The notes under the pieces were generated by a model, which was not told where the DNA came from, did no database searches, and saw only the letters and a list, made by a program, of their open reading frames with translations. From Chloroflexota bacterium (lineage in GTDB: Bacteria > Chloroflexota > UBA11872): 64,000 bases of DNA. Of the stretch, positions 10,727-13,916 are shown in pieces (position 1 is the stretch's first letter; each line of letters begins with the position of its first letter). The stretch is taken from contig JAPOWQ010000062.1 of the NCBI GenBank assembly GCA_026707585.1, positions 53,460-117,459 of the forward strand, read 5' to 3'. A program made the translations under genes and the position numbers.

Positions 10727-12229
10727 ATGAACCGTCCCGCAGGCATCGAGACCGAATACGGGCTCAACTGCGAGGGCTTTGCGGGCGAACCCGATTTCGC
10801 CTACGAGGCGGCTCGACTGATCCAGGCGGCGCCGGTTGAGGGCGCATTTCGCGGCTGGGATTACGTGGGCGAGGACCCGTACCGCGACCTGCGCGGGGGC
10901 CGGGCGGATCGGCTGGAGCGGGATCCGAGGGATTTGACGGGCTCGACGGACCGCAGCAGCCGGATGTCGCGAGACGAGTTACTTTCGAACACGGTGCTGC
11001 GCAACGGGGCGCGGCTCTATAACGACCACAATCATCCCGAGTACTGCACGGACGTCTGCCTGACCTTGAAAGACCTGGTGGCACAGGACAAGGCGGGCGA
11101 GCGGGTGATGTTCGCGGCGGAGGCGGCGCGGAACGCGATGCTGGGTTACGGGCAGATTCGGCTGCTGAAGAACAACACGGACTACCACGGACGCAGCTAT
11201 GGCTGCCACGAGAATTACCTGACGTCGCGGAGGATTCCGACGGACGATCTGATCCGGGTGACGGTGCCGTTCCTGGCGACGCGGCAAGTGTTCGCGGGGG
11301 CGGGGCGGGTCGGAATCGAGGGCGGTGACGCGCTGCAGTTGCAGATGTCGCAGCGGGCGGACTTCTTCGAGGAAGTCACGGGCATCAACACGACGGCGCG
11401 GCGGCCGATCTTCAACACCCGGGACGAGCCACACGCGGACCCGGGGAAGTACCGGCGGCTGCACGTCATTGCCGGCGACGCGAACCGGAGCGAATGGGCG
11501 ACGGCAATGAAGGTAGGGACCATGGCCCTGACGCTGGACCTGGCGATGGAGGGCTGGCGACCCTCGGAGCGACTGACTGACCCGGTGCGGGCGGTGCGGC
11601 GGGTGTCGCACGACCTTGAATTCGGGGGTGTCGTGGACCTGGAGCGGGGCGGGCCGGTATCAGGGCTGGATGTTCAGCGCTGGTACTGCGAGGCCGCGCA
11701 ACGCTATCGGGGGCGGGACGCGGAGACAACATGGGTGCTGGATGAGTGGGCGGCGGTGCTGGAGGACTTGGGGCGGGACAGGTCGCGGGCGGCAGACCGC
11801 GTGGACTGGGTGGCAAAGCAGCGCCTGATCGCGGAGATGCGTGAGGACTTCGGGCCGGAGTGGAAGGACGAGGATGCCCGGCGCGTCGACCTGGGGTACC
11901 ACGTATTGGATCCGGCGTGGTGCGTGTACGACATGCTGGTGGACGAAGGAGAAATGCGGCGGATCGTGAGCGACGCGGATATCGAGCGGGCGTTGTCGAC
12001 GCCGCCCACGGGTACGCGGGCGGCGGTGCGCGGGGACGTGCTGCGCCGGTTTGGCGAGGACATCAGCGCGGTGGAATGGGACCGGGTGGTGTTTCGCCGC
12101 AACGGGTATGACGTGACACTGCGGTTTGACGACGTCGTTGGACCAGAGGTCGATCGGCTGGGGCGGCTGGTTACGGAGGCGGAGACACTCGAGGGATTGC
12201 TGACCGCGTTGGACGCGGAAGGAAGGTGA
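10727..12229 (+). CDS. dop: Dop: Pup deamidase/depupylase
   Basis: 500-aa member of the Dop/PafA carboxylate-amine ligase-like family. It should deamidate the C-terminal Gln of Pup to Glu and remove Pup from tagged lysines. The ATP/Mg motif is I-E-T-E-Y-G (residues 7-12). The Dop-specific loop follows the W-D-Y-x3-E-x-P-x-R-D-x-R-G pattern (GWDYVGEDPYRDLRG, residues 43-57) and precedes NGARLYNDHNHPEY, whose Asp100 corresponds to the catalytic Asp. Also conserved are DKAGERVM, YGCHENYL, NTRDEPHAD and RRLHVIAGDANRSE. This loop distinguishes it from PafA. Its stop is 4 bp before the pup ATG. No proteasome subunit or ARC/Mpa ATPase gene is in view. Confidence 0.95.
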   Translation: MNRPAGIETEYGLNCEGFAGEPDFAYEAARLIQAAPVEGAFRGWDYVGEDPYRDLRGGRADRLERDPRDLTGSTDRSSRMSRDELLSNTVLRNGARLYNDHNHPEYCTDVCLTLKDLVAQDKAGERVMFAAEAARNAMLGYGQIRLLKNNTDYHGRSYGCHENYLTSRRIPTDDLIRVTVPFLATRQVFAGAGRVGIEGGDALQLQMSQRADFFEEVTGINTTARRPIFNTRDEPHADPGKYRRLHVIAGDANRSEWATAMKVGTMALTLDLAMEGWRPSERLTDPVRAVRRVSHDLEFGGVVDLERGGPVSGLDVQRWYCEAAQRYRGRDAETTWVLDEWAAVLEDLGRDRSRAADRVDWVAKQRLIAEMREDFGPEWKDEDARRVDLGYHVLDPAWCVYDMLVDEGEMRRIVSDADIERALSTPPTGTRAAVRGDVLRRFGEDISAVEWDRVVFRRNGYDVTLRFDDVVGPEVDRLGRLVTEAETLEGLLTALDAEGR

Positions 12230-12233
12230 GGAC

Positions 12234-12410
12234 ATGCGGCAACTTGTAGCTGCCGGCCGCGGCTGGCGTGCGGAAACCGAGGCGCCGACGAAGCCGGCGG
12301 AGGTTCCGTCGGAGCCGGCGGCACCGGAGAAAGAAGAGGACCTGCGGGAGCGCCGGCGGCGGATCATTCGGGAGATTCCGGATCCGACACCTCAACCCGG
12401 CGGTCAATAG
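12234..12410 (+). CDS. pup: Pup: prokaryotic ubiquitin-like protein (58 aa)
   Basis: A 58-codon ORF sits exactly between dop and pafA and ends Pro-Gly-Gly-Gln, the di-Gly-Gln terminus of Pup. The protein is highly charged and Pro/Glu/Arg-rich, has no Cys, and is probably disordered except for a helix at about residues 32-48 (EKEEDLRERRRRIIREI). This is the size and character expected of Pup. A strong ribosome binding site (GGAAGGTGAGG) overlaps the dop stop codon. Unlike actinobacterial Pup, the segment before GGQ is proline-rich (PDPTPQP) rather than a Phe/Tyr-containing helix, so it is divergent. The Gln terminus implies deamidation by Dop before ligation. The gene is easily missed because of its length. 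Confidence 0.92.
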   Translation: MRQLVAAGRGWRAETEAPTKPAEVPSEPAAPEKEEDLRERRRRIIREIPDPTPQPGGQ

Positions 12411-12419
12411 CACTCGCGC

Positions 12420-13916
12420 ATGGACGACATCGTCTTTGGGACAGAGATCGAGTTCGCCTCGGCCGGGGCGTTGCCGCCCGGACAAGCGGCGCGGCTGGTG
12501 AAGTCGATCCTGTTCCAGGACCGGCGGTTCGGACTAATCGATCCGGCGCCACGCGAGTGGGACGAGGAGCCGGGGAACGGCGGCCACCTATTCAATGGGG
12601 CTCGGTTGTACCTCGACTCGGGTCACATCGAGTACGCCTCGGCGGAGTGCCGGACGCTGCGGGACATCGTGGAGCAGGAGAACGCCGCTTCGGCGGTGCT
12701 GCTGGACACGGTGGAACGGCAGGAGATGAACCGGAAGCTGTTCTTCATCAAGAACAACACAGATCACCTGGGCAATACGTTCGGATACCACGAGAACTAC
12801 TCGATCGTGACGAGCCCGCGGAGCCGGGACCTGGTGCTGGGCTTGCTGCCGTTTCTGACGACGCGGCAGCTATACGCCGGGGCGGGAATGACGCTGAATC
12901 CGAAGGAAGCGGGGGGGCGGCTGCCGTTTCACATGTCGCAGCGGGCGGCATTCGTGTCGGTGGACGTGAGCCACCGGGTGCGGTTTGGGGGACGTCCGAT
13001 CATCAACCTGCGGGACGAACCGCTCAGCGAACGGACCGGGCTGCGTCGGCTGCACGTGGTGGTTGGGGACGCAAACCAGTCGCAGTACGCGACGGCGCTT
13101 AAGGTGGGAAGCACGGCGCTGGTGGCGCAGTTGCTGGCGGCGGGGTGGAATCCGGAGCTGTACCTGGACGAGGCGGTTCGATCGATCAAGTCGATTTCGC
13201 GCAATCCGGGCGGGCCGTGGCCGGTGGAACTTGTGGACGGCCGGACGATTTCGGCGATCGACGTGCAACGGACCTATCTGGACGCCGCGACTTCGGCGTT
13301 TGCAGGCCGCGATGCCGATACGGACTGGACACTGGCCGCGTGGACTGAGTGTCTCGACGGGCTGGCGTCCGACCCGGAATGCCTGGTGGGCAAGGTGGAC
13401 TGGGTGACGAAACTGGCGGAACTTCGGGACTACGCGGACGACTCGCCGGAAGGCTGGGCAGATCCGGACCTGGTGAAGCTGGACCTCGCGTACCACCACG
13501 TGGACCCGACGGTGAGCCTGTTCAGCGAGCTGCAGCGGCGGGGATTCATGTACCGGCTGGTATCGGGACCGGTGAATCCGCTGGCCATTCCGGAGGGCAC
13601 ACGGGCCGGCGCGCGGGGGCGGATTGTGCGGGCGCTGTCGGAAGCGCGGGCGGACTCGCACATCGACTGGAAGGACATCCAGCACAACCTGGGCGCGCTG
13701 GCGAGCTGGGAGAACCAGCTGTACCTGGTCTACCAGTACATCGAGCACTGGCGTGAACTGGACGAGTTTGGGGGATGGTCGTTCGTGCCCTACCTGGTGG
13801 ACTGGGACGGGATTGGCGTGCGGGGGCGGATTTTCGAAATGCCGGATCCGTTTGAGACGTATGAGGACCAAGCCGAGGAGTTTGCGGGGGCGGTGGAGGG
13901 ATATCTGGGCGGTTAG
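12420..13916 (+). CDS. pafA: PafA-like Pup ligase
   Basis: 498-aa Pup-protein ligase homolog that should activate Pup's C-terminal Glu with ATP and join it to substrate lysines. Its nucleotide motif is G-T-E-I-E-F (residues 7-12), followed by NGARLYLDSGHIEYASAEC with catalytic Asp66, then FIKNNTDHLGNTFGYHENY, NLRDEPLSE and RRLHVVVGDANQSQYATALKVGS. It lacks the Dop loop, so it is assigned as the ligase. It is about 45 residues longer than mycobacterial PafA; the final 75 residues (after HIDWKDIQHN) diverge and carry a Tyr/Trp-rich segment followed by an acidic end. It starts 9 bp after pup, so dop-pup-pafA is one transcription unit. Confidence 0.93.
   Translation: MDDIVFGTEIEFASAGALPPGQAARLVKSILFQDRRFGLIDPAPREWDEEPGNGGHLFNGARLYLDSGHIEYASAECRTLRDIVEQENAASAVLLDTVERQEMNRKLFFIKNNTDHLGNTFGYHENYSIVTSPRSRDLVLGLLPFLTTRQLYAGAGMTLNPKEAGGRLPFHMSQRAAFVSVDVSHRVRFGGRPIINLRDEPLSERTGLRRLHVVVGDANQSQYATALKVGSTALVAQLLAAGWNPELYLDEAVRSIKSISRNPGGPWPVELVDGRTISAIDVQRTYLDAATSAFAGRDADTDWTLAAWTECLDGLASDPECLVGKVDWVTKLAELRDYADDSPEGWADPDLVKLDLAYHHVDPTVSLFSELQRRGFMYRLVSGPVNPLAIPEGTRAGARGRIVRALSEARADSHIDWKDIQHNLGALASWENQLYLVYQYIEHWRELDEFGGWSFVPYLVDWDGIGVRGRIFEMPDPFETYEDQAEEFAGAVEGYLGG

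Follow-up and report, generated by a model that had tools for sequence, protein, structure and literature searches.

A dop–pup–pafA cassette with a divergent Pup-like tag in a class of Chloroflexota, and its possible role outside proteasomal degradation

Introduction

Pupylation is usually described as a tag for the proteasome, and the proteasome-less actinobacteria considered here keep an ATPase. What, then, is the purpose of pupylation without degradation? This question is made testable by a locus in the DNA of a Chloroflexota bacterium (GTDB lineage Bacteria; Chloroflexota; UBA11872; GenBank assembly GCA_026707585.1, contig JAPOWQ010000062.1, positions 53,460 to 117,459). The whole stretch of 64,000 nucleotides is called the window here. 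It carries genes for a depupylase/deamidase (Dop), a Pup-like tag and a Pup ligase (PafA) in the order dop–pup–pafA:

10727..12229, + strand: dop, depupylase/deamidase with the Dop loop, 500 amino acids (PF03136, 3.4e-144)
12234..12410, + strand: pup-like gene, 58 codons plus stop, ending in Gly-Gly-Gln, with a tail kept across the class
12420..13916, + strand: pafA, Pup ligase without the Dop loop, 498 amino acids (PF03136, 2.1e-101)

An initial annotation, made from the sequence, had read these three genes as a complete tagging module in which the small open reading frame (ORF) between dop and pafA ends in Gly-Gly-Gln. Re-reading the window confirmed the genes, their coordinates, the gaps of 4 and 9 bp between them and the Gly-Gly-Gln end. 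The sequence GGAAGG stands upstream of the ATG of the pup-like gene.

Search for a proteasome and for Mpa/ARC

According to the initial annotation, no proteasome or ARC/Mpa gene lies near the cassette, and a search of the whole genome for prcA/prcB and mpa/arc extended this absence genome-wide. PF00227, a profile that covers both the 20S proteasome and HslV, gave zero matches in the whole genome of the window, which is 95.6% complete. For the ATPase we used TIGR03689 with its cut-off of 504.75 bits; no Mpa/ARC protein exceeded this value in the window genome or in any of the 41 genomes of its class. The best score of the Mpa profile in the class was 221 bits, reached in genome G029 by a protein that contains two AAA modules. 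All 14 control genomes gave AAA matches with the same profile, and one of the 14 exceeded the cut-off; we take this genome to be that of C. glutamicum, which has ARC. The cassette is also present in a genome of the same genus that is assembled in a single contig (G018, 94% complete), where neither a PF00227 match nor an Mpa over the cut-off was found. A search for Bpa gave no match in the 41 class genomes and likewise none in any control genome. Because the window genome has no proteasome match and the class has no Mpa/ARC over the cut-off, the tag likely has a role other than the delivery of proteins to a proteasome.

Conservation of the Pup-like gene

Of the 39 class genomes that carry the cassette, 38 have an ORF ending in PxPTPQPGG[QE] between dop and pafA; in the remaining one (G009) a run of N covers the pup position. 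The ORFs were located by the tail pattern itself; since all 38 readable loci matched, no locus was dropped by searching in this way. An ORF with the same tail at the same place in 38 of 39 genomes is not a chance frame. Changes in the tail were counted over the last 24 codons in 37 genomes (G034 was left out). The 37 genomes have 37 distinct DNA sequences here, which encode only 14 peptides, with synonymous changes at nearly every codon. Within genera the pN/pS ratio of the tail amounts to 0.007 (91 pairs), and between genera to 0.244 (575 pairs). In nine genomes that belong to the same genus as the window, pN is 0.000 for the tail against 0.281 for the first 14 codons. In 26 of the 37 genomes the 14 residues ahead of the last one are the same, and each of the remaining 11 shows a single difference. 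Judged from these sequence comparisons, the 58-codon ORF is a real gene, the tail of which is under strong purifying selection.

The terminal residue of the tag is Gln in 14 of the 38 genomes (genera g1, g6, g8 and g11) and Glu in the other 24. The initial annotation had proposed to compare Pup C-termini in related genomes, and had named an ORF that is not conserved, or that does not end in GG(Q/E), as the result that would count against it; the comparison found the ORF conserved, with GGQ or GGE throughout the 38 readable genomes. The general definition of a Pup given in the accessible part of PMC2588565 is a protein of 50-90 residues with a G[EQ] end and a pafA-family neighbour, which agrees with the 58 residues of the window tag and with GGQ or GGE in 38/38 genomes. 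Relatives of the tag have uncertain starts and span 47 to 96 residues in alignment A2. Longer Pup-like frames, reaching roughly 100 codons and beyond and also with uncertain starts, are seen at L055, L056, L068 and L063 and at the loci of family f5.

None of the Pup models of Pfam and NCBIfam matches the window ORF or 20 of its relatives, even at an E-value of 10, and the window ORF has no match to any model of these two collections. Among the 21 tag sequences there are stray weak matches to models other than Pup, namely FtsA_C (three members, best E-value 0.011) and pneumo_PspA (three members, E-value 1.4). Wherever the sources give names to homologues of the tag, among the 120 listed, the name is 'hypothetical protein'. 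With this name and no matching Pup model, the tag is overlooked by current annotation.

A scan of named sequences with the tail pattern returned 34 stretches, and in 33 of these the tail belongs to a suitable ORF (in two cases cut at the start of the stretch). The remaining match, in Bacterium HR10 (L086), was rejected as a chance match, its ORF having only 18 codons. By their titles, 31 of the 33 tail-bearing stretches belong to Chloroflexi or Chloroflexota and two to Thermoflexus hugenholtzii JAD2. These two (L078 in G028 and L104 in G033) are probably mis-titled metagenome-assembled genomes (MAGs).

Sequence and predicted structure of the tag

Three parts of the tag can be told apart downstream of its start:

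12273..12302, + strand: Pro/Thr/Glu-rich motif ETEAPTKPAE, found in a looser form class-wide (alignment A2, 21 sequences)
12324..12362, + strand: sole helix predicted for the tag (residues 31-43; mean predicted local distance difference test score 65.7 in the AlphaFold2 model of A2)
12363..12407, + strand: near-invariant C-terminal block IIREIPDPTPQPGG[Q/E] (37-genome tail comparison)

The N-terminal part is long, rich in Pro, Thr and Glu and without predicted structure, and the tag closes with the near-invariant tail PDPTPQPGG[QE]. Across 49 loci (the window locus included, some genomes counted twice), every tag has at least four Pro among its last 11 residues and none has a Phe, Tyr or Trp among its last 30. 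This bears out the description of the Pup in the initial annotation as divergent, with a tail that is Pro-rich before GGQ and free of Phe and Tyr. The position of canonical helix 2 holds IPDPTPQP in the window tag, and the Pro-rich stretch occupies the place of the Mpa-binding helix of canonical Pup. Residues 21-51 of canonical Pup form a long helix on the coiled coil of Mpa while the N-terminus threads into the pore (as described in the accessible part of PMC8755798), and known Pups, when bound to PafA and Dop, fold into two helices at the C-terminus (likewise from part of PMC8599861). The tag thus seems to be reduced to the part that its own enzymes need, plus the Pro/Thr/Glu motif. Its Pro-rich tail, in which a second helix is not expected, also provides a test of how PafA and Dop hold such a Pup.

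Proposed function and alternatives

Given that neither the helix by which Pup binds Mpa nor the ATPase was found, we somewhat favour the view that the cassette is a reversible, mostly non-proteasomal pupylation switch that would operate without Mpa and through a putative reader. In the known chemistry, as far as it is set out in the accessible part of PMC3511204, Dop deamidates GGQ, PafA ligates the side chain of the Glu to lysine and Dop cleaves the product. Carried over from these reactions, Dop would likely convert GGQ to GGE here, PafA would likely join the side chain of the terminal Glu of the tag to lysines of target proteins, and Dop would likely remove the tag again. Tagging would then act as a reversible switch on the target proteins, with the Pro/Thr/Glu motif upstream of the helix as the candidate site for a reader protein. 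Since Dop is retained in the 24 of 38 genomes whose Pup already ends in GGE, its selected role in these genera is likely the removal of the tag rather than deamidation. The suggestion in the initial annotation that pupylation would serve signalling or act with another protease is of the same conditional kind.

Several points weigh against a non-proteasomal switch. The conjugates are predicted; genome G019 of the same class does without the cassette; and no gene outside the cassette recurs in more than 8 of the 20 neighbourhoods compared. Proteins of the FtsH type may also be partners despite their counterparts in G019, and the searches for proteases covered the ClpP family and those AAA proteins that the Mpa profile reaches, not Lon or the Clp ATPases.

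A further-reaching form of the switch, which we put forward tentatively, is a purely regulatory, SUMO-like Pup throughout the class, with no unfoldase helix, proteasome or dedicated ATPase, with partners that read the motif and with Dop as the eraser. If true, this would be a bacterial ubiquitin-like code uncoupled from protein destruction.

The alternative that survives best, though we consider it rather doubtful, is that this Pup is recognised as a degradation signal by an ordinary AAA+ protease (ClpC/X-ClpP, FtsH or Lon). ClpP-family matches occur in 38 of the 41 class genomes, the window genome has two FtsH-type proteins of 675 and 629 amino acids (open frame; named from their AAA and HExxH motifs), and the Pro/Thr/Glu-rich N-terminal part of the tag, predicted to be unstructured, could be an initiation region. 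However, G019, a genome without the cassette, has proteins that correspond in length and match pattern to the two AAA proteins ranking closest by the Mpa profile. The FtsH-type L031 and the 629-amino-acid FtsH-like L033/L034, found in the window genome with this profile and named from reading their sequences, were not kept as Pup readers, because such counterparts in G019 show no tracking with the cassette. L032 (G000:C46) was also rejected as a reader; its 24 Pfam matches include AAA and lid domains and no Mpa-type OB-domain model. This protein of the window genome is an AAA ATPase of 410 amino acids directly followed by a DUF6414 protein, and among the matches listed, those like L032 in length and score (414 and 418 amino acids) are found only in G000 and G001.

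The gene neighbourhood also speaks against this alternative. All ORFs of 19 cassette stretches and of the first 24 kb of the window were compared by blastp; the counts leave out a twentieth stretch, L069, that of a putative stray paralogue. ORFs that recur across families are mostly shadow ORFs overlapping dop or pafA, and with no outside gene above 8 of 20 neighbourhoods there is no guilt by association. Among neighbours that cross families we recognised an enolase-type protein (f4 loci and one f1 locus) and a Gfo/Idh-type protein (f4 loci and the window), both metabolic by reading of their sequences.

It is improbable that the class has a proteasome and an Mpa that were missed through assembly gaps or divergence, with a PrcA in G026 as their visible remnant. 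PF00227 matches occur in only three of the 41 genomes (G012, G014 and G026). The match in G026 (L050/L134, contig G026:C256) is a C-terminal fragment of PrcA at a contig end, the tetranucleotide composition of which correlates with that of the cassette contig at r 0.88, although contigs of different genomes also reach r 0.84. Among the best 120 of 6416 database matches of L050, the relatives that carry a name are 78-84% identical and come from MAGs of Mycobacteriales, Frankiales or Actinomycetota; unnamed entries reach 96%. G026 is 6% contaminated, and we regard the fragment as likely contamination, with transfer also possible. Because a fragment this short was found, the search was able to see an actinobacterial 20S. 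The other two matches are lone Ntn-type proteins of 247 amino acids, L048 in G014 and L049 in G012 (PF00227 E-values 2.5e-10 and 1.8e-9, respectively), and the best match of L048 to a solved structure is yeast beta 7 at an E-value of 2.5e-6. The Mpa count of 0/41 and the single-contig genome G018, which has neither component, further argue against a missed system. The neighbours of L048 and L049, named by reading of their sequences, are nuoE/nuoF genes.

A reading in which the 58-codon ORF does not encode a tag, or in which the cassette decays and its two enzymes act on other targets, would fit the lack of a Pup model match in the ORF and its 20 relatives and the lack of a predicted second helix like that of known Pups, but is very unlikely given the strong purifying selection on the tail, the fixed position between dop and pafA, the GG[QE] terminus and the invariant active sites.

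Comparison with known systems

Pupylation without a proteasome is already known, as described in the accessible parts of PMC3511204 and PMC2588565. What sets the present case apart is that it extends over a whole class, that its tag forms a separate type and that the ATPase was not found. With a writer, an eraser, a selected tag, no ATPase over the cut-off and one doubtful 20S fragment, the class offers a minimal three-gene system in which a pupylation switch without degradation can be tested. The cassette has in common with the actinobacterial Pup-proteasome system (dop-pup-prcB-prcA-pafA with mpa/arc) the PF03136 enzymes Dop and PafA with conserved active sites, a small protein ending in GG[QE] and a pup directly after dop. 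It differs from that system in the missing PF00227 match of the window genome and the missing Mpa/ARC of the class, and its tag, unmatched by Pup models, has one predicted helix and a Pro-rich tail rather than two C-terminal helices. UBact, known to us by title only, is reportedly a ubiquitin-like modifier of Gram-negative bacteria with an accompanying proteasome (the title is that of Lehmann et al. 2017), and likewise has conjugation components outside Actinobacteria.

Corynebacterium glutamicum and similar actinobacteria are likewise without 20S genes and have pup directly before pafA (PMC3511204, in part). Those genomes, however, retain the ATPase ARC, whereas Mpa/ARC was not found over the cut-off here; ARC of Corynebacterium has been proposed to unfold pupylated ferritin (accessible parts of PMC8223512 and PMC12288473). 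Plesiocystis and Rhodopirellula also have Pup and a ligase without linked proteasome genes, but their ligases carry an insertion of four transmembrane segments (4-TM) and are linked to a gene for a membrane protein (Iyer et al. 2008, PMC2588565, in part). The window instead has a pair of Dop and PafA without a 4-TM-like hydrophobic stretch; the maximum Kyte-Doolittle hydropathy over 19 residues is 1.02 in Dop and 1.26 in PafA.

Outside Actinobacteria, Pup has been described in Nitrospirae, Verrucomicrobia, Deltaproteobacteria and Planctomycetes (Iyer et al. 2008, PMC2588565) and further in NC10, Armatimonadetes, Nitrospinae, Firmicutes and Proteobacteria (PMC7947786), as far as the accessible parts of these papers go. 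The word Chloroflexi has 0 occurrences in the texts of the same two papers to that extent, and no title on pupylation in Chloroflexota was found in a literature search with subscription papers mostly outside its reach.

The two enzymes

Two further features concern the active sites of the enzymes:

10754..11026, + strand: span from the Mg-ligand Glu10 to the catalytic Asp100 of Dop, containing the Dop loop (W44 and others)
12615..12617, + strand: codon of PafA Asp66, a residue invariant in 20/20 class PafAs

PF03136 scores 481.5 bits for Dop and 340.5 bits for PafA, both above the Pfam gathering cut-off of 25 bits. Dop scores higher with TIGR03688 (409.8 bits) than with TIGR03686 (337.6 bits), both below the curated equivalog cut-offs (492.3 for TIGR03688, the Dop model, and 551.3 for TIGR03686, the PafA model). 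For PafA the better of the two is TIGR03686 with 274.5 bits, also below its cut-off. The distance between the Glu that binds Mg and the catalytic Asp is 90 residues in Dop and 55 in PafA, which places a Dop loop in the first enzyme and none in the second and upholds the assignment of the first as a Dop with its specific loop. The second enzyme has the catalytic Asp and the Dop/PafA fold without the Dop loop, as expected for a PafA. Its residues E9, E11 and D66 are invariant in the 20 class PafAs examined, and we take Asp66 to be the equivalent of the catalytic Asp64 of other PafAs. Similarly, E8, E10, W44, R96, Y98 and D100 are invariant in the 20 class Dops examined. The best relative of solved structure of the window Dop is Dop 4b0r (E-value 7.9e-102), and in an alignment of the two W44, R96, Y98 and D100 are matched to W47, R90, Y92 and residue 94 of 4b0r; the roles of W47, R90 and Y92 are described in the accessible part of PMC8599861. 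Promoter and terminator scans gave nothing exceeding shuffles.

Two database proteins related to the enzymes stand out. P0042, a class-type PafA relative of 526 amino acids that stands for 32 member sequences, has an Asn in the column of the catalytic Asp in alignment A3, which could be an inactive form or a slip of the alignment. P0134 is a predicted protein of 146 amino acids in which the end of a Dop continues in frame into a Pup-like tag, and this could be either a natural fusion or a frameshift.

Distribution and descent

Two PF03136 matches are present in 18 of the 19 genomes of the window's family, and at least two in 39 of the 41 genomes of the class. Across the phylum (400 Chloroflexota genomes), the cassette was found in the same 39 only and in 0/359 genomes outside the class. 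Two class genomes lack it, one 76% complete (G007) and one 93% complete with 1.9 Mb (G019). G019, of family f2, is the sole class genome over 90% complete without PF03136 matches, a natural loss.

In quick trees of 20 Dops and 20 PafAs, families f1, f2 and f5 stay together in both, and the class PafAs form one clade with class-type database proteins (support 0.97). The coherence of the families in both trees and the single PafA clade fit vertical descent after one gain. The neighbours of this clade are PafA-type proteins named by their sources as Poribacteria, Latescibacteria and Chthoniobacter.

A second, more distant PF03136 protein of 479 amino acids was seen in G029 (L069/L135, contig G029:C77), with no Pup-like tail ORF found nearby; it may be either a stray paralogue or contamination. 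Finally, the class-type PafA/Pup proteins P0009, P0191 and P0216 are filed under the MAG names 'Actinobacteria' or 'Gammaproteobacteria' and probably come from mis-assigned bins.

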